A stretch of DNA of 38,198 bases from Gammaproteobacteria bacterium. GTDB lineage: Bacteria; Pseudomonadota; Gammaproteobacteria; Pseudomonadales; Azotimanducaceae. The DNA is taken from positions 1-38,198 of the forward strand of contig PBRP01000100.1 of assembly GCA_002726655.1 (NCBI GenBank). Direction: 5' to 3'. Of this stretch, positions 2,961-13,226 are shown piece by piece (the first letter of the stretch is position 1; each line of letters begins with the position of its first letter). A program made the position numbers and the translations under genes. The notes under the pieces were generated by a model that ran no database searches, had not been told where the DNA came from, and saw nothing but the letters and a program-made list of their open reading frames with translations.

Positions 2961-3275
2961 TCAGGCTGTCGGTGATTTATTATTGAGGCTGTTCAGCAGA
3001 TCGATATTAGCCGATTGCAAATCATCATCGAGACTTTTAAGGGCTTCCTTGTCCTTCTCAAACCCTTCCCGTATGGATTCCATACGCAACTGTTCACGAA
3101 TCTCATCGGTACCGATTTCATTTTCAATGTCTGCTTTCAGCTCGGCAAACCTACGCCTTAGCTGGGCATACCAGCGGCCCGCCTCGCGCAACTGCCGTGG
3201 CAGGTTCTCAGGCCCCGCTACTAGCAGTGCAACGGTGGCAATAAGCAGCAGTTCGGTAAACCCTATATCGAGCAT
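2961..3275 (-). CDS. tatB: TatB-like twin-arginine translocase component
   Basis: This 104-residue protein has the TatA/TatB architecture: a short N-terminal membrane helix (about 6-20), a Gly-Pro hinge (21-22) and a long charged amphipathic helix. Glu8 and the GPENLP motif are features of TatB, which forms the substrate-receptor complex with TatC, rather than TatA. It is the last gene of the leftward redox operon, 14 bp after the cytochrome c gene, with no tatA or tatC nearby. The first gene of the same operon encodes a protein with a clear Tat signal, so this may be a TatB paralogue serving that substrate. It could also be the cell's only TatB, displaced from tatABC; the window cannot decide. 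The symbol rests on family resemblance. Confidence 0.8.
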   Translation of the reverse strand: MLDIGFTELLLIATVALLVAGPENLPRQLREAGRWYAQLRRRFAELKADIENEIGTDEIREQLRMESIREGFEKDKEALKSLDDDLQSANIDLLNSLNNKSPTA

Positions 3276-3289
3276 TATGGTTTCTATTA

Positions 3290-4093
3290 TCAGTGAGCAG
3301 CCTGATGGCCCTCATGATCCTTGTTGTAGATACCTTTGGGTAGAATCGGTGCCCGCTCGGGTCTTAACTGAGCATACCCGCTGTTCCTCGCTCCCTGCTG
3401 AACATCATGCGGATTATGGCACTCGGTGCAGACCCACCAGCGTTTCTTGCCCGTTGATGCCCATTCGCCGATGCGCTTGCCGTGAATACCATCGCGCCAG
3501 TCCCGATAGATAGGCCCATGACACTTGCCGCAAAGCTTCTGTGGTTCATCAAAACTGACCTCATTACCGAAATTATCCACCAGCTTATTACGCGTATCAC
3601 TATGGTGACAGTCAAGGCACCAGATGCCACCTCTGCCATGCTGGAGATCACTTGCGTCCGGTACGACATCCCCGTGCATAACCAGTTTACGGGGATTCGG
3701 ATCATCATTCTTAACCGGGAAGGTGCCGTTATGACAGGCAACGCCACAAACCGGCAGAAAACCCAGTTGCGGCGCCCTTGGTTTGACAACCGCCTCACCT
3801 TTTGAATAATCCGCTTCAATCTTCATCTCACCCATTGGTTCAGTGCCATCAAAGGGATCACCCCACCAGAGCACCCCACCCGCCCTGGGCGAACACTTGA
3901 CGTTGGGCAGTCCTTCAGCGATTTCCGTCTTCTTGACCTCAGAGCTGCCCTCGCGGCTCTCAAAACAGACAGTTTCCTCTTCGGCGAAGGCAAGGGGCGA
4001 ACTCGCCGCCAGCACCCCAAATAGCACCAGTTGATTCATCTTCATGAAAGCCATGTCTCGAAACCTATCTAAATGTCCAGTTCGATTATTCAT
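3290..4093 (-). CDS. Periplasmic four-haem cytochrome c
   Basis: The protein carries four haem c attachment sites: CGVACH (116-121, a CX3CH form), CLDCH (159-163), CGKCH (188-192) and CTECH (222-226), numbered from the ATG at 4093. Extra histidines (MHGD, LQHG, GIHGK and the C-terminal HEGHQAAH) could be distal ligands. A signal peptide ends at about AFA, residue 37, so it should act in the periplasm as the electron acceptor or donor of the membrane complex encoded upstream. The ATG at 4093 overlaps the preceding gene by 8 bp; internal ATGs at 4054 and 4045 would give a more usual signal-peptide length and are good alternatives. It resembles the multihaem subunits of Dsr-, Nrf- or Hmc-like complexes in general form, but I do not recognise a named family. 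Confidence 0.85.
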   Translation of the reverse strand: MNNRTGHLDRFRDMAFMKMNQLVLFGVLAASSPLAFAEEETVCFESREGSSEVKKTEIAEGLPNVKCSPRAGGVLWWGDPFDGTEPMGEMKIEADYSKGEAVVKPRAPQLGFLPVCGVACHNGTFPVKNDDPNPRKLVMHGDVVPDASDLQHGRGGIWCLDCHHSDTRNKLVDNFGNEVSFDEPQKLCGKCHGPIYRDWRDGIHGKRIGEWASTGKKRWWVCTECHNPHDVQQGARNSGYAQLRPERAPILPKGIYNKDHEGHQAAH

Positions 4094-5297
4094 TTGCCTG
4101 TTTCACCTCACCAAGGAGAATGCCGATCGCACCCTTCAGTAGAATCGTGAGTATCAGAAAGCCAATCGCCCAATTCCCCAGGCAATTGCTTATCTCGATA
4201 AGGGTGGGCGAATACTCGGTAAATTCACCAATAGGCGTCGGGATAGAGCCTGGAATAAGCAGCCCCATTCCCTTCTCAACCCAGATACCCGCAAACAACA
4301 CTGCACAAATGAAGGGCAGCACCGTGTAGTTCTTGCGAACCTTGGGAATCAGCAGCAGCACCCAGCCAACAATCAGAGCAATGAGCGACACCCAGAACCA
4401 GATTACCAGGTTGTTCAGACCATGCTTACCAAACATCAGGTATTGCAACCCACCTGAATGTTCAGTCGGGTGATAGAGTTCCGTTACCACTTCTGACATT
4501 GTCAGGAAGAGTGCAATGGTAAGGCAGGCCACAACAATCGTAGAAAGCATGTCGATGGCCTTGTCTTCAATCCACAATGCCGTTTTATTGCGAATAATGA
4601 GAAAGATGATGATGATGAGTGCAGGGCCTGCGGCGAAGGCAGTCGAGATGAAGCGAATAGGCATCATACCGTGATGCCACATGGGTCTTGCCGGCATGGT
4701 ATTGATCAGGAACGCGGTGATCGTATGAATACTGATCGCCCAGACAATTGATACAAAAATGAGCGGCAGGTACCAACTGTTGTTAAGTGGTCTGCCTGTA
4801 TACTTTTGATAGAGGAAATAGAATCCACCGACAAAGTTCAGCAGCAGATAGATGGTCAAAACCAGGGTATCCCAGGTCAACATTGAATTTGGCCAGTTGA
4901 AGATGCCGATGACCGGTACCATGTGCCAAAGCCTCTCCGGCCTCCCCATATGGGACATGACAAACAAAAGGCACATCACCACTGCGGCGATCGCAAGCAT
5001 TTCCCCCAGCACCGTGACCTTATGTAGTGGCTCATACTTATAGACATAGGCAGGGAAAACGACCGTAACGGCCCCTGCGGCAACACCCACCAGAAAGACA
5101 AAATTTGCCAGGTAAAGACCCCAGCTCACCTGGTCAGTAAGCCCGGTCACAATCATTCCCTGCGTAAATTGCTGGTAATTGCCGTATGCCCAGGGGATGA
5201 GGAAGAGTGCGAGAAAGCCCATCCATAAATAGAACTGCTTGCCGCCTTTAGCTACATAGGTGACATAATCGATGGTGAATTTGATTAGTGTTGTCAT
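4086..5297 (-). CDS. NrfD/DsrP/HybB-type integral membrane quinone-interacting subunit
   Basis: This 403-residue protein is almost entirely hydrophobic, with about ten predicted membrane helices, the form seen in the larger NrfD-family members such as DsrP, HybB and the Act proteins. A GRPER motif after the third or fourth helix and a PARPMWH segment resemble conserved family elements. These subunits exchange electrons or protons with the quinone pool and bind an iron-sulfur partner. Here that partner is the upstream protein, whose gene ends 11 bp before this ATG; the cytochrome gene starts 8 bp before this gene's end. A GGGGGAAAGG Shine-Dalgarno precedes the ATG at 5297. No molybdopterin subunit is present in the window, so this is not a complete DMSO, polysulfide or tetrathionate reductase. 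Confidence 0.9.
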   Translation of the reverse strand: MTTLIKFTIDYVTYVAKGGKQFYLWMGFLALFLIPWAYGNYQQFTQGMIVTGLTDQVSWGLYLANFVFLVGVAAGAVTVVFPAYVYKYEPLHKVTVLGEMLAIAAVVMCLLFVMSHMGRPERLWHMVPVIGIFNWPNSMLTWDTLVLTIYLLLNFVGGFYFLYQKYTGRPLNNSWYLPLIFVSIVWAISIHTITAFLINTMPARPMWHHGMMPIRFISTAFAAGPALIIIIFLIIRNKTALWIEDKAIDMLSTIVVACLTIALFLTMSEVVTELYHPTEHSGGLQYLMFGKHGLNNLVIWFWVSLIALIVGWVLLLIPKVRKNYTVLPFICAVLFAGIWVEKGMGLLIPGSIPTPIGEFTEYSPTLIEISNCLGNWAIGFLILTILLKGAIGILLGEVKQANE

Positions 5298-5308
5298 GGC
5301 CTTTCCCC

Positions 5309-6403
5309 CTAATCCGTGAAGTAGAAAAATTTAGGATAGGTGTTTACTTCAGCCTTGAGCCGGAACACTCTCTTTCTATCGAGTACTCTTCTTACTTCAC
5401 TATCGGGATCCAGCAGGTTGCCAAACTTCCGCGCTCCTACCGGACAGACTTCAACACAGGCCGGATAACGGCCATGGCGAATCCGTTGGATACAGAAGGT
5501 GCATTTTTCAACCACACCCTTCATTCTCGGTCGATTGCCCAGGTAGTGGGTCTTGGGATTCATCTCTTCTTTGGGTAATTTTGGCTCGCCCCAGTTAAAT
5601 CTCCGTGCCCAGTAGGGGCAGGCGCCGATACACATTCGACAGCCGATGCACCAGTTATAATCAACGACGACAGGGCCATCAGGTTCGCGATAAGTCGTTC
5701 TTACCGGGCAGACCTTCACGCAGGGAGGCTTTTCACACTGCATGCAGGCGATTGGCATATAGTGGGAATCTGCCTCAGGTACCTTTTCGGGTTCATAGTA
5801 GTGCTCACCTTCAAGAACCACACCTGCCGCGCTGTAGGCATTGCCACCAACCTGAATGCCATAGTCACCGGGATACCCATCATTGAGTTTTTCCTGGGTG
5901 AACTCACCCTTCTCCATCTTGAGTACTCGAATCCACTCGATCTCCTGCTCATCACCGCGGGTCTGATTGTTCTCCTGAACGCAGGCCTTAACACAGCGGC
6001 GGCAGCCGATACATTTTTGAATATTGAGGGCATAGCCAAACAGGACACCCTCCTGGGCATCCGTGCCATCTACCGTGACGTTCTTGCCATATTCTTTGGA
6101 ATAACGTTGCTCCAGACGCGAAATGGACTCCTGCTTCTCCTCATCGGTCATCAGCCGATAGGCGCCTTGAAAGTGTTCCGCCCAGCTTGTGTTTGCCTTG
6201 GCATCATCACTACCAGTGACCAGCGCAGCAGTGCCTACCAGTGAGGCAGCGCTTAACCCGGCGCCCTTCTTTAAGAATCCACGACGTGACTCCGAGGCAG
6301 GGGCTTGATCTTCAGTTCCGACGGGGTTCCACTGCTGTATGGGGTTTCCAGCCGATGCTGGATCACCAGTAATATCAACAACAGGTATCTTTTCTTCTGG
6401 CAC
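5309..6403 (-). CDS. Tat-exported ferredoxin-like subunit with four [4Fe-4S] motifs (DsrO/HybA/NrfC type)
   Basis: The predicted protein has a twin-arginine signal (SRRGFLK, arginines about 40-41) followed by a hydrophobic Ala/Leu-rich segment, so it should be exported folded with its clusters. Four cysteine groups follow at about 131-141, 220-233, 252-262 and 301-320; together they supply 16 cysteines for four cubane clusters, as in HybA, DmsB, NrfC and DsrO. It should relay electrons between the membrane subunit and the cytochrome encoded downstream. I place the start at the GTG at 6403 because GGAGG lies 6 nt upstream; the frame is open five codons further to a TTG at 6418 that lacks such a site. 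It is the first gene of the operon and lies about 91 nt downstream of a predicted anaerobic promoter. Confidence 0.9.
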   Translation of the reverse strand: MPEEKIPVVDITGDPASAGNPIQQWNPVGTEDQAPASESRRGFLKKGAGLSAASLVGTAALVTGSDDAKANTSWAEHFQGAYRLMTDEEKQESISRLEQRYSKEYGKNVTVDGTDAQEGVLFGYALNIQKCIGCRRCVKACVQENNQTRGDEQEIEWIRVLKMEKGEFTQEKLNDGYPGDYGIQVGGNAYSAAGVVLEGEHYYEPEKVPEADSHYMPIACMQCEKPPCVKVCPVRTTYREPDGPVVVDYNWCIGCRMCIGACPYWARRFNWGEPKLPKEEMNPKTHYLGNRPRMKGVVEKCTFCIQRIRHGRYPACVEVCPVGARKFGNLLDPDSEVRRVLDRKRVFRLKAEVNTYPKFFYFTD

Positions 6404-6493
6404 GACATTCCTCCACAAACTGTATATATCTCAAAGGATTTAGCTATTCGCCACTTTCGAAGGCCGACCAGCAATAGGGTCAGCGATCAGGGT

Positions 6494-6541
6494 AAGCTGG
6501 AAAATAACAGATTCGAGATTAAATTCTTTGACCTAGATTAA
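6494..6541 (-). promoter_or_regulatory. FNR/Anr/Dnr-like class II promoter of the redox operon
   Basis: TTGAC-CTAG-ATTAA at 6528-6541 matches the FNR/Anr/Dnr consensus TTGAT-N4-ATCAA at eight of ten fixed positions. On the minus strand an extended -10 (TG one base before TATTTT, hexamer at 6501-6506) lies where it should be if the box is centred at -41.5, the class II activator position. The predicted start of transcription is near 6494, giving a leader of about 91 nt before the GTG at 6403. In the plus direction the -10 candidate is poorly spaced, so control of the leftward operon is the better reading. Whether the activator senses oxygen or nitric oxide cannot be told. Confidence 0.5.
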
Positions 6542-6635: not shown

Positions 6636-6977
6636 ATGAACCCGAAAACAAAAATCTATTTCGGTCCACCTATCCACGTGTTGACGGAAGGTCAGAACAA
6701 TACGCTGGAAATCAGCGGGAAGCTGAATCGGACGGCTGAACGATATATGGAAATTATGAAGGATCATGGTTTGGAGTTGGCCGAATCTGAAAGAGCATGC
6801 TTGACACAAATCTGTGATTTCGGTTTCATGGCGCCCTATGAGATTCGCGAACTGCCAATCGACGTCAGAATGACGAAGTTTGAGGCAGAGGGTCTGGATA
6901 AAGAATGCCTTGCTCAAAAATTGGAAGCAGCCTCCATCGCGGATTTAATTTCAGTTGTTGAAGACCTAGGATTCTAA
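6636..6977 (+). CDS. Small hypothetical protein coupled to the methyltransferase
   Basis: I do not recognise this protein. From the ATG at 6636 it has 113 residues, is soluble, acidic and probably mostly helical, with no signal peptide, membrane helix or metal-binding cysteine set (two scattered Cys-bearing segments, RACLTQIC and KECLAQ). A longer form from an ATG at 6582 is possible, but that start lies very close to the divergent promoter and neither start has a strong Shine-Dalgarno. Its TAA overlaps the ATG of the methyltransferase gene by one base (TAATG), which indicates translational coupling and a shared role. It could be an accessory or regulatory partner of the methyltransferase; that is inference from position only. 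Confidence 0.7.
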   Translation: MNPKTKIYFGPPIHVLTEGQNNTLEISGKLNRTAERYMEIMKDHGLELAESERACLTQICDFGFMAPYEIRELPIDVRMTKFEAEGLDKECLAQKLEAASIADLISVVEDLGF

Positions 6978-7741
6978 TGACACCAAATTCAGAAATAGCG
7001 TTCACCAAGAACGAATCAGATCGTGCCGATTCTTTCTCAGAAATCTGGGATGTTGAGCTAAACAAAGTCTTCGCCGACGTGGCTGATTATTATGATCGTG
7101 CCAATACTGTTGCGAGTCTGGGTATGCTGGGTATCTGGCTAAAGAAATTTGTCGCAACCATCGATGTCCAGCCAGGGAACAAGGTTCTAGACGTCTGCGC
7201 AGGGACCAATGTAATGGGCATCACCATGCTGAAGAAGGAGCCCAACCTTGATGTCCAGGCAATGGATAGAAGTCCCGATATGCAGCGAGTCGGCGCGGAA
7301 CGGGCCACTAAACGTGGATTCACCATCAAATCCGACATTGGTGATGTGCACCAGTTACCCTATCCTGATGATCACTTTGATGTGGTAACCCTGCAGTATG
7401 CCTCCCGCCACCTCCGTATTCTGCAGGTGTGTAAGGAGATTCACCGGGTGCTCAAACCCGGGGGTCATTTTTATCACTGCGATATGTTGCGTCCCCAGAA
7501 CCCTATCGTCGAGAAGGCTTATTATGCCTACCTCTATTTCTGCCTGAGATTCACTTCCTGGTTGTTCAGCTCCAACAAAGCAGCGCTCAATTGCCAGGAT
7601 TATTTCATCGAGGCACTCAAGGTGTTTTATTCCGCGGAAGAACTGTCAGACCTGATGCGCACCGCGGGATTTACCACCGTCGAACACAAGCGTGTCGTGG
7701 GCGGAATGGCTGCCTTTCATAAGGCCGCCAAAGCAAAGTAG
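6977..7741 (+). CDS. UbiE/MenG-related SAM-dependent methyltransferase
   Basis: This 254-residue protein is a class I methyltransferase. Motif I (VLDVCAGT, about 70-77) binds S-adenosylmethionine, and RVLKPGGHF marks the later Rossmann motif. Segments on both ends resemble UbiE, the C-methyltransferase of ubiquinone and menaquinone synthesis: FADVADYYDRAN near residue 32, the stretch after NPIVEKAYYAY, and the closing GGMAAFHKA. It departs from UbiE at usually conserved places: YDRAN instead of YDLMN, and ASRHLR where UbiE has a GLRNV-like element. I read it as a paralogue with another, perhaps quinone-like, substrate rather than as the housekeeping enzyme. Its divergence from a quinone-linked redox operon across one control region fits a role in quinone tailoring, but this is unproven. 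Confidence 0.8.
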   Translation: MTPNSEIAFTKNESDRADSFSEIWDVELNKVFADVADYYDRANTVASLGMLGIWLKKFVATIDVQPGNKVLDVCAGTNVMGITMLKKEPNLDVQAMDRSPDMQRVGAERATKRGFTIKSDIGDVHQLPYPDDHFDVVTLQYASRHLRILQVCKEIHRVLKPGGHFYHCDMLRPQNPIVEKAYYAYLYFCLRFTSWLFSSNKAALNCQDYFIEALKVFYSAEELSDLMRTAGFTTVEHKRVVGGMAAFHKAAKAK

Positions 7742-10916: not shown

Positions 10917-13226
10917 CTAATTAATGTAGGAAGTGATAAAGCCTGCCGCTCTCTCTGGCATGCTGTAGATGTCAGCTACCTTTGAGTAGGCAAGTCCATT
11001 TTGTTTCCACGATGGCCTCTCACCCGAGGTCATCATATCGAGAAGCAATTCATTGAAATCACCTTGCTGGAAAGGAGAACAGACCAGTTTCCCGGCCTTG
11101 GCATCAGTGACATGGTGTGCATAACCACAAACATCGGTCGCGAGCACCGGCAATCCGGCCACGATGGCCTCGAGTATTACAGTACCGGTATTTTCCATAT
11201 AGGCTGGATGCACCAGTAAATCAGCCCCCAGGAGGAATCTTGGTATGTCAGTACGGCCTTTCAATATCGTTACCTGACTTTCCAGATGAAGGCGGGCCGC
11301 CATCCGCCGGAAGGACCCCGGTGCATCCTGACCTATGGCAATCAACCTGGTCCTGCGCCTTATCGAATCGGGTAAATCACGCATACCTAGTAGAATCCGA
11401 TCCAATCCTTTTGTAATAAAACCGGAGCCGACCATCAGCAGAAGTTTTTCTTCCTCTCCCATCGAGAATTCCTCACGAAGTCCGACACGAATTTCTTCGC
11501 TGCCATCAGGCGCCATCCTGTCCCTGCCTATACCTGGCGGTAGCAGGTGAAAGCGCGACAGGGGAGTATTGTAGTGTCTAAGAAAAATTGGCTTTTGAAC
11601 TTCAGATATCATCAGGATCTTGGTTTCAGCTGTAGGTTCAAATACGGCTTTTTCTGAACGAGAGAAATGCCTGTAGCGGGGAATAGATCGGTACAACCTT
11701 CCCCGCTGGGTCTGTGCTTTCTCTTCGTAACAGGAGTCTGCTGCATAATATACATCCAAGCCAGGCATCTTGTTAAAACCGATAACACCATCCGCGGGGT
11801 CACAGATGAGGTGACGCCCCACCCAATGAGAAAATCTCCTGTATCTCGAATGATTAGTTATGGCGGTAACAGGCACAATGATGACCTCGAACCCTGGGGG
11901 AATTTCTCCCTGCCAAAGCAAGGTGTAGACTCTTATTTGATAGCCCCGCTTCTGGCACTCCTCGGCTATGCGTATAAAGTCCCTCTGCAGACCGCCAAAA
12001 GGGAAGTACTTAAAAAGGCAAAAGGCAAGAATCAGCGGCTTTGACTTCTCAAGCTTTCGCTTGGCAGTAACGTTCTCTATGATTTCAGTTGCTTTCTTGT
12101 GTAATGAATAGATATTGGCAGTATTCGCAAATTGTTTGGCATTTAGCCTCCACTCATCACGCCTGTCGCATTCAATCATTTCCAGCAGTTTTTCATTGAG
12201 TGCAACCTGCTTGAACGGGCTCTCAATCAGGCAACCAACGTTAGCCTCGGTCACATAGTGTCCCCAACCACAAATATCCGTTGCCAAAACGGGAAGCCCG
12301 GCAACGATTGCCTCGAGCAGGATAATCCCCGCATTCTCATCAAGTGCAGGATGTAACAAAACGTCACTGGCCAACAAAAATTCTGGCACATCATCGCGAC
12401 CCGATAAAATTGTTACTTGTTTTCGAAGCCCCAACGCGAGAACCACCCTCTGAAATGGGGCTGGATTGTCCTCGCCTATTACAAATAGCTTTGTTCTTTC
12501 CCGAATACCTTTTGGCAGTGACCTTAGCGCATACAGCCCCCTATTGAGTCCCTTCTTAATAAATCCCGATCCAACCATCAACAATACAATTTCATCGTCT
12601 GCCAGACCCAGTTCCCGGCGCTTTCTGGCCCTTATTTCTTCCCCGTTATTAGGTGCGATTCGATCTCTGGATATGCCTGGTGGCAAAAAGTGCAGTCGAT
12701 CTGATGGAGTCTGGTAGTGCTTTTCGAAGAAGGGCTTCTGAGTCTCAGAGATCATCAATACTTCGGTATCGCAGTTTTCTGCAAATACCGCCTTCTCGAA
12801 TTTTGCGAAATGGCGATAACGGGGTAGCAGACGATACAGCCAACTCCGCTGGGTTTGCGCCTTCTCTTCATAACAGGAGTCAGCAGCGTAGTAGATATCA
12901 AGATCCGGCATCTTATTAATACCAACAACGCAATCCACGGGATTACCACGAAGCGCATCCTGAATCCAGTATGAGAATCTCTCATAAAGTGTATGGTTAG
13001 TCAGAGCATCGACCGGCACGATGACCACATCGAACCCCTCTGGAATATCACCACGCCACACCAGCGTGTATACCCGGATCTGATGACCCCGCCTTTGACA
13101 CTCTAGAGCTATGCGAATGAAATCTCTTTGTAAACCACCATACGGAAAGTACTTATAAAGGCAAAACGCCAGTTTTACTCCGGTGGATGGTTCACTTTGA
13201 GGATCTGTGACTGTAACGCTTGCCAA
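10917..13226 (-). CDS. waaG: Tandem fusion of two WaaG-type glycosyltransferases (GT4)
   Basis: WaaG transfers the first hexose (glucose in E. coli, galactosamine in Pseudomonas) onto heptose II of the LPS core and is about 370 residues long. This protein has 769 residues because it holds two complete copies, about 18-388 and 398-769, joined by a short charged linker. Each copy has the KYFP-GGLQRDFIRI N-terminal loop, a VGSGF..KGL.R segment and the EX7E catalytic motif (E297/E305 in the first; the equivalent pair near 678/686 in the second), so both look active. The aligned first 60 residues differ at only about 13 positions. The start is a TTG with GGAGG four bases upstream; it overlaps the end of waaC by 52 bp and no later in-frame start precedes the first domain. 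No stop or frameshift separates the copies. The copies might add two sugars or act as a tethered pair. Confidence 0.92.
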   Translation of the reverse strand: MASVTVTDPQSEPSTGVKLAFCLYKYFPYGGLQRDFIRIALECQRRGHQIRVYTLVWRGDIPEGFDVVIVPVDALTNHTLYERFSYWIQDALRGNPVDCVVGINKMPDLDIYYAADSCYEEKAQTQRSWLYRLLPRYRHFAKFEKAVFAENCDTEVLMISETQKPFFEKHYQTPSDRLHFLPPGISRDRIAPNNGEEIRARKRRELGLADDEIVLLMVGSGFIKKGLNRGLYALRSLPKGIRERTKLFVIGEDNPAPFQRVVLALGLRKQVTILSGRDDVPEFLLASDVLLHPALDENAGIILLEAIVAGLPVLATDICGWGHYVTEANVGCLIESPFKQVALNEKLLEMIECDRRDEWRLNAKQFANTANIYSLHKKATEIIENVTAKRKLEKSKPLILAFCLFKYFPFGGLQRDFIRIAEECQKRGYQIRVYTLLWQGEIPPGFEVIIVPVTAITNHSRYRRFSHWVGRHLICDPADGVIGFNKMPGLDVYYAADSCYEEKAQTQRGRLYRSIPRYRHFSRSEKAVFEPTAETKILMISEVQKPIFLRHYNTPLSRFHLLPPGIGRDRMAPDGSEEIRVGLREEFSMGEEEKLLLMVGSGFITKGLDRILLGMRDLPDSIRRRTRLIAIGQDAPGSFRRMAARLHLESQVTILKGRTDIPRFLLGADLLVHPAYMENTGTVILEAIVAGLPVLATDVCGYAHHVTDAKAGKLVCSPFQQGDFNELLLDMMTSGERPSWKQNGLAYSKVADIYSMPERAAGFITSYIN
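10920..13172 (-). repeat. waaG: Diverged in-frame tandem duplication inside the waaG gene
   Basis: The two halves (about 12065-13172 and 10920-12030) can be aligned along their full length at the protein level and in long patches at the DNA level, for example around 11700-11790 and 12845-12930. The differences there are largely third-position changes. That pattern indicates an older duplication in which both halves have been kept under protein-level selection. Confidence 0.85.

Follow-up and report, generated by a model that had tools for sequence, protein, structure and literature searches.

What can an operon of electron-transfer proteins be for when no catalytic gene accompanies it? The question is posed by four adjoining genes of a gammaproteobacterium of the Azotimanducaceae, which lie in a 38,198-nucleotide stretch (contig PBRP01000100.1 of assembly GCA_002726655.1, positions 1 to 38,198; 'the window' below means this whole stretch) and encode an exported iron-sulfur (Fe-S) protein, an NrfD/DsrP-like membrane protein, a tetrahaem cytochrome c and a TatB paralogue (Table 1). 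Judging from sequence, we take the operon to encode a quinol:cytochrome c oxidoreductase that stands alone, probably translocates ions and belongs to the type described in print as dsrOhPh-tetrahaem, a reading to which we assign a probability of roughly 0.7.

The original prediction for this DNA had named the same four families and suggested a stand-alone quinone-cytochrome oxidoreductase, and both statements bear up well. All four open reading frames (ORFs) are present, all on the minus strand, and the family scores agree. Related NrfD proteins (39-83% identity) are encoded in 42 fetched loci, of which 39 have an Fe-S homologue and 40 a cytochrome homologue beside the NrfD gene, so the arrangement of these three genes, hereafter the trio, is not due to chance. 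In the host genome, which is 91% complete, a profile search found a single NrfD match, that of the window, and neither DsrA nor NrfA (PF02335) was found over cut-off, the nearest approach to NrfA being a 20.9-bit match inside a heptahaem ORF on contig C83. An NrfABCD nitrite reductase was rejected on the NrfA result, and the oxidoreductase remains the best reading of the operon.

Is the complex, then, part of a Dsr system? Placement of the membrane protein inside a characterised family such as DsrP was one of the points on which the original prediction had let its reading turn. By score the protein falls there, passing the NCBIfam model NF045798 with 363 bits against a cut-off of 350; by tree, synteny and the residue at the quinone site it does not. 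The same cut-off is passed in 35 of the 40 genomes with trio loci. It does not separate DsrP from the window type (the relatives that group with the window's protein in the tree described below), because window-type, sister and dsrMKJ-linked scores all straddle or exceed it: 326-363 bits in the Desulfobacterota-side sample of the window type and 334-382 in its Beta/Gamma set (truncated copies aside), 385-440 in the scored copies of the sister complexes, that is, the other tetrahaem-linked ones, and 371-510 in the 13 dsrMKJ-linked copies of the tree, nine of which reach at least 450. By admitting complexes that lack DsrMK, the cut-off leads automatic annotation to overstate DsrMKJOP, and the label 'sulfate reduction DsrP' misleads when it is placed on a trio where no Dsr enzyme exists. 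DsrP is also the annotation of a Flammeovirga plasmid gene whose product is 42% identical to the window's NrfD protein (gene context not examined).

By everything other than the score, the operon is not a Dsr operon as far as sequence can tell, because no DsrMK adjoins it, its NrfD protein lies outside both DsrP clades and a histidine replaces the aspartate of the quinone site. The search for adjoining DsrM and DsrK, which found none, covered the locus and not the whole genome. In the clade that we call DsrP1, DsrM, DsrK and DsrJ homologues adjoin in 13 of 13 rows, the family names being given by NCBIfam in locus L138 (DsrM 470 bits against 300, DsrK 708 against 400, DsrJ 164 against 100). The NrfD tree comprises 97 rows and comes from a quick search supported by the Shimodaira-Hasegawa-like approximate likelihood-ratio test (SH-aLRT) only, with no bootstrap; 13 duplicates, near copies, truncated or superseded copies were left out beforehand, and L028, L043, L129 and L187 were lost to the coverage criterion. 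In this tree 41 window-type rows make up one side of a branch with SH-aLRT 93 (100 when L194 is included). The 13 rows of DsrP1 (98) and the five of DsrP2 (100) form clades of their own, with the window's protein outside both, and the other tetrahaem-linked rows do not constitute a single group.

The residue at the quinone site divides the proteins in the same manner. His116 is found in all 39 window-type rows aligned, and the corresponding position carries Asp in 13/13 dsrMKJ-linked rows and in 24/24 aligned rows of the sister type. Lys342 is likewise invariant in the 39 window-type rows and would correspond to Lys329 of DsrP. Both equivalences come from motif and spacing: the match of His116 to Asp106 of Desulfovibrio vulgaris DsrP, a protein that was not itself aligned, is read from the distance Tyr62-His116 as compared with Tyr52-Asp106. 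In the relevant passages of Calisto and Pereira (PMC8076601), the Asp106-type position is linked to quinol protonation and Lys329 is proposed as a proton gate of DsrP; a change of the residue in the second transmembrane helix (TMH2) blocks quinol oxidation in DmsC, where it is His, and polysulfide respiration in PsrC, where it is Asp; and His is also found at the quinol-protonation position in DmsC, NrfD and ActC. The clade-wide replacement of Asp by His at this site is an adaptation that can be tested directly.

A relict or accessory DsrJOP belonging to a Dsr system would agree with the DsrP score over cut-off, and DsrMKJOP, with its O- and P-like subunits, is the nearest curated family by score. 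Such an origin is nevertheless extremely improbable, given the lack of DsrA over cut-off, the four haems in place of three, the separate clade and the Asp-to-His replacement. In six trio genomes, moreover, the region around another DsrP match, weaker than that of the trio, was retrieved, and all six have there a separate DsrM-DsrK...DsrO-DsrP locus, whose P protein is 22-26% identical to the queries, so that the trio coexists there with rDsr loci encoded elsewhere. On the DsrA result, the locus context, these separate loci, the tree and the quinone-site residue, we rejected the relict.

The locus type is already in print. As presented in the section of a March 2026 paper in BMC Genomics that deals with it (PMC13047784), dsrOhPh-tetrahaem loci occur in cable bacteria, some Desulfobulbales and Beta/Gammaproteobacteria, where most of the genomes examined have a separate rDsr, and also in five of 16 examined genomes that have no sulfur metabolism. 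Their membrane subunits are placed in a clade apart from DsrP, near reductive DsrP, and electron transfer from quinone to periplasm is proposed, which is the proposal that we make here. The window's locus and its relatives agree with that description in combining DsrO-like, DsrP-like and tetrahaem proteins in one locus that lacks dsrMKJ, in a clade of its own found in Beta/Gammaproteobacteria and beyond, and in coexisting with rDsr in some genomes; the match was judged by description, no cable-bacterium sequence having been compared directly. The window's trio differs in being accompanied by a TatB paralogue, an AcrIE10-like protein and a UbiE paralogue, none of which is mentioned in that section, and no TMH1, the further component of the published locus (TMH1-DsrOhPh-tetrahaem), was seen in the window. 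TMH1 is said in the same section to be unique to cable bacteria. A small separate protein of 94-107 residues, with a Tat-like signal by eye, is encoded upstream of the Fe-S gene in four Desulfobacterota-side window-type loci (L150, L157, L158, L159), and may correspond to TMH1. By title or the beginning of the abstract, we found no paper that treats the helper genes of the trio and the AcrIE10 link together; these two aspects are new here, and so is the enrichment of FNR-like sites among the relatives.

How would such a complex work? We propose a quinol site near the side of the NrfD subunit that faces the periplasm, where His116 would take up the proton. The Tat-exported subunit, with its four [4Fe-4S] clusters, would conduct the electrons to the tetrahaem cytochrome, and from there they would reach soluble carriers or reductases of the periplasm whose genes lie at other loci. 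Quinol oxidation might perhaps be coupled to proton translocation. The linked TatB is probably engaged in exporting the Fe-S subunit, and low oxygen probably leads to higher expression by way of an FNR-type regulator. In two relatives the trio is followed by small one-haem proteins that could serve as electron acceptors of the tetrahaem cytochrome: two such proteins (cytochromes c by Pfam) together with two unassigned proteins in a Thiodiazotropha locus (L026:12220-13830), and similar ones, recognised by size and haem motif, in L192 of genome G350.

Two older systems can be regarded as analogues of the trio by comparison of their descriptions, namely CbcSTU of Geobacter and SirCD of Shewanella, the latter presumably linked to SirA. 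CbcSTU (Cbc4), as outlined in the pertinent part of PMC11434368, likewise lacks a catalytic subunit and acts as a menaquinol:ferricytochrome c oxidoreductase built of a c-type cytochrome, the Fe-S protein CbcT and the membrane protein CbcU. SirCD, in the same account, is a quinol dehydrogenase of Fe-S and NrfD-type subunits that can feed several respiratory pathways; the pair as described there has no tetrahaem subunit, unlike the window. The Beta/Gamma window-type cytochromes differ from CbcSTU in their CXXXCH first haem, and the tree contains no named Geobacter row.

Does a catalytic gene ever join the trio? The statement of the original prediction that none is present is true of the window. 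In a minority of its relatives a catalytic gene does lie beside the trio, in at least six of the 41 window-type loci, a lower bound given that several contigs are short and that multihaem neighbours in L014 and L025 were left uncounted. Three of the six, from Rhodocyclaceae, Azonexus and Propionivibrio (L011, L012 and L016), have genes for a pentahaem cytochrome and for DmsA-like, DmsB-like and TorD-like proteins ahead of the trio, while those for an NtrC-type regulator and its histidine kinase come behind it; the families were scanned on L012 and carried over to the other two by clustering. The L012 DmsA-like protein reaches 617 bits with TIGR02166, below the cut-off of 778. The remaining three (L157, L159, L161) have a molybdoenzyme and a pentahaem cytochrome adjoining the trio, the enzyme being nearest PhsA in L157 (307 bits against 694) and assigned by clustering only in L159 and L161. 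Sister complexes adjoin NapA-like (L168, 674 against 904) and ArrA-like (L166, 1097 against 1600) enzymes, a molybdoenzyme with NapB (L031), octahaem proteins (L031, L036, L040) and, in eight loci, mostly decahaem proteins of one family. The trio may be viewed as a plug-in electron supply, used alone or, by itself or in the form of its sister complexes, beside DmsA-, PhsA-, NapA- and ArrA-like enzymes. As an observation in its own right, the operon at L012:3606-15763, which unites the DmsA-like reductase, pentahaem cytochrome, TorD-like protein, trio, a 113-residue protein and the NtrC-type two-component system, encodes an uncharacterised enzyme of the dimethyl sulfoxide (DMSO)/selenate family.

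These neighbours bring up the possibility that the window's complex is the dedicated donor of one unlinked reductase, for instance a single enzyme of the DMSO-reductase family, and thus half of a split enzyme in place of a general module. The DmsA-like and PhsA-like clusters in the six loci speak for such a pairing. Of the 24 molybdoenzyme loci in the host genome, however, 12 were compared with the DmsA-like protein from Rhodocyclaceae; the closest of these 12 encodes a TorA-like enzyme with only 29% identity, and that enzyme has its own adjoining TorC/NapC-like donor. We therefore regard a dedicated donor as unlikely, though deserving of attention.

Could the electrons run the other way? All the adjacent molybdoenzymes scanned (L012, L157, L168, L166) are nearest to reductase models, if below the curated cut-offs, and the direction of quinol oxidation is favoured for this reason. 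The host genome has 24 PF00384 matches, four of them on contig C147. Nine of its catalytic subunits were scanned: one is NarG, two are formate-dehydrogenase-like, one is TorA-like and five (L049, L050, L051, L052, L056) score best with models for type II or ethylbenzene dehydrogenases, which hints at anaerobic oxidation of hydrocarbons or steroids. Periplasmic type II molybdo-dehydrogenases of this kind could pass electrons through the tetrahaem cytochrome to quinone, by analogy with Qrc and cytochrome c3, for which there is a precedent in the relevant part of PMC8076601. The type II enzymes, together with hydrazine-dehydrogenase-like neighbours of sister complexes, keep this reverse direction alive. 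Against it stand the reductase-like neighbours of the relatives. Many carriers of the trio, moreover, are by their names what we take to be sulfur oxidisers or denitrifiers, in which such dehydrogenases are not expected, and reverse flow appears to us distinctly improbable.

Quinol oxidation by a stand-alone complex thus stays our preferred reading, and several points weigh against it. The support of 93 for the window-type branch, from a quick search without bootstrap, is below the starred level. None of the 24 PF00384 matches, all unlinked to the operon, is identified as its partner, and five of the nine catalytic subunits scanned are nearest the type II dehydrogenase model, so the flow could be reversed. 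The completeness of the genome is 91%. Hydrazine dehydrogenase, no reductase, is the nearest model for the octahaem protein of L036, the only one scanned of three (52 bits against a cut-off of 900). Close to the trio of L014 and of L025 there are multihaem proteins of unassigned kind that could be hidden partners. In L014:2253-8216 an 802-residue protein with seven haem sites and a NapC/NirT protein are encoded upstream of the trio, and L025:2559-8816 has several multihaem proteins upstream; neither the 802-residue protein nor, in L025, a 704-residue neighbour is matched by NCBIfam at up to 1e-10. In the host genome itself an octahaem partner was looked for and rejected, PF13435 having only two matches, both in the heptahaem ORF on C83, which also has TPR-like repeats by eye.

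Table 1. Features of the operon and of its divergent neighbours, with positions in the window
Feature	Position	Strand	Basis
TatB paralogue	2961..3275	-	TIGR01410, 73 bits against a cut-off of 56.5
Tetrahaem cytochrome c with N-terminal signal-like stretch	3290..4093	-	four haem motifs
NrfD/DsrP-like quinol-binding integral membrane subunit (predicted)	4086..5297	-	PF03916, 114 bits; NCBIfam DsrP, 363 bits; separate clade; Lys342, His116
Fe-S protein, Tat-exported, four [4Fe-4S], DsrO-like	5309..6403	-	DsrO NCBIfam; Pfam Fer4_11; SRRGFLK motif; 16 Cys
FNR-like site TTGAC-CTAG-ATTAA	6528..6541	.	2 mismatches to consensus
UP1, 113-residue acidic protein with AcrIE10-like fold (predicted)	6636..6977	+	conserved beside trio; AcrIE10 profile and fold
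UbiE-type methyltransferase paralogue	6977..7741	+	PF01209, 136 bits

The subunits deserve some further description. The Fe-S gene extends from 5309 to 6418 (TTG 6418) according to the ORF tool; GTG 6403 appears to be the better start because relatives begin alike there, and the Shine-Dalgarno-like GGAGGAAT precedes it. The protein remains below the NCBIfam DsrO cut-off (184 bits against 200), has its Tat motif and its cysteines in four ferredoxin-like sets of four, and is 67-85% identical among window-type relatives with a full-length copy. The first haem motif of the cytochrome is CXXXCH and the other three are CXXCH, and two further cysteines, C43 and C67, are invariant in 10 aligned copies. 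CXXXCH stands first in all 26 full-length window-type cytochromes of the first set, the window's included (the L023 copy is cut short, with one CXXCH visible, and that of L019 was not picked as an ORF), and in L125, L126, L153, L169 and L170 of the second. We rejected it as a feature of the entire window type, eight Desulfobacterota-side cytochromes (L150-L152, L157-L161) having CXXCH there; it marks mainly the Beta/Gamma branch. The TatB protein is 47% identical to that of a second tatB on contig C143, which is followed by a tatC-like ORF (named by eye), and TatB homologues, recognised by tblastn only, are found near the trio in eight further gamma loci, at two different positions.

Control by an FNR-type regulator, as the original prediction had it, finds support in the family and only weakly in the window. 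Scored against TTGATNNNNATCAA, which we take to be the FNR consensus, the window's site has two mismatches and is not significant alone, 0.24 of shuffles doing equally well. Sites with at most one mismatch, by comparison, are found in six of 26 upstream regions (the window's counted) against 0.37 expected, and one of them is perfect against 0.01 expected. The site is not universal, with three or four mismatches in 15 of the 26. Four of 30 regions had been dropped, L126 having no upstream sequence and the Fe-S gene not being first in L011, L012 and L016.

Two linked genes on the plus strand were left out of the original prediction: UP1, divergent from the operon, and a UbiE-type gene whose ATG overlaps the UP1 stop codon. 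With them and the TatB paralogue, the trio of the window looks like one equipped with seemingly its own export and perhaps quinone-modifying helpers. Of the 42 fetched loci, 22 have a UP1 homologue next to the trio, all of them among the 27 beta/gamma loci, in 11 cases divergent upstream and in 11 downstream on the same strand; of the five beta/gamma loci without it (L013, L015, L016, L025, L026), two, L013 and L025, have contigs that break off within the trio. An even sample of 369 genomes was drawn from the class, and each was searched whole with a UP1 profile built from trio neighbours; UP1 occurs in four and a window-type NrfD (at least 60% identity) in seven, one of these a contig-end fragment. 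All four UP1 genomes are among the seven, with UP1 beside the trio, and none is among the other 362.

What is UP1? Pfam gives no match to it up to E 10, nor does NCBIfam up to 0.01. The profile of 23 rows finds the anti-CRISPR protein AcrIE10 in the PDB (E 7e-8, residues 26-111), and an AlphaFold2 model (pLDDT 81.9) is matched to it by Foldseek with probability 1.00, TM 0.76 and E 1e-3. VIA gives Z 11.2 over 110 residues at rmsd 3.9, the next row having 3.6; values under about 13 in helical proteins may reflect only a common arrangement, and we therefore rest the claim on the sequence profile and on how far the next row falls behind. By profile and predicted fold, UP1 is a distant relative of AcrIE10, from which it differs in its about 18% identity in the structural alignment, its chromosomal location and its linkage to a redox operon. 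PADLOC has weak matches to it (best E 0.002, one named DNA-binding HTH), and phrog_14350 of PHROGs, with no assigned function, matches 19 of the 23 members (best E 1.4e-6); tblastn found no relatives on plasmids or phages.

For its role we would prefer, in this order, an assembly or Tat chaperone and then a regulator. We do not commit to a DNA-binding regulator, as the family is acidic (pI 4.4-5.8 across the 23 rows), despite one AcrIE10 entry of the PDB being titled a DNA complex. A tie to a split Tat protein was dropped, the Tat-like motif being in the Fe-S protein itself wherever there is enough sequence (too little only in L013 and L193), and inspection by eye found no binding site that could be claimed. 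The part of a review that treats AcrIE10 (PMC13131331) has it acting at Cas7e, where it prevents Cascade from assembling, and describes its conservation across phyla as broad. We tentatively suggest that the AcrIE10 fold has a cellular branch to which UP1 belongs as a chromosomal accessory (assembly or Tat chaperone, or regulator) of the quinol:cytochrome c complex, and that a phage or plasmid anti-CRISPR may have been recruited from its family. If so, some of the proteins behind the broad conservation reported for AcrIE10 may belong to redox operons and be no CRISPR inhibitors. The link to a redox operon is in any case a hint that AcrIE10-like genes do not have to encode CRISPR inhibitors, and it makes a cellular origin of AcrIE10 testable.

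The UbiE-type gene is a second one: the genome's best UbiE match is on contig C143, beside a ubiB-like ORF (named by eye), and is 28.6% identical to it. L008, L009, L170 and L192 each carry a homologue of 56-60% identity adjacent to the trio. Among the quinone genes, UbiA is over cut-off, and the sole MenA-like protein reaches 42 against 102. The additional methyltransferase could tailor a special quinone; RquA, which we take to be a UbiE relative making rhodoquinone, is an unconfirmed lead. Further along the window (10917-13226), among genes that look like a lipopolysaccharide cluster, lies a 769-residue protein, by eye a glycosyltransferase, that consists of two tandem halves 58% identical to each other.

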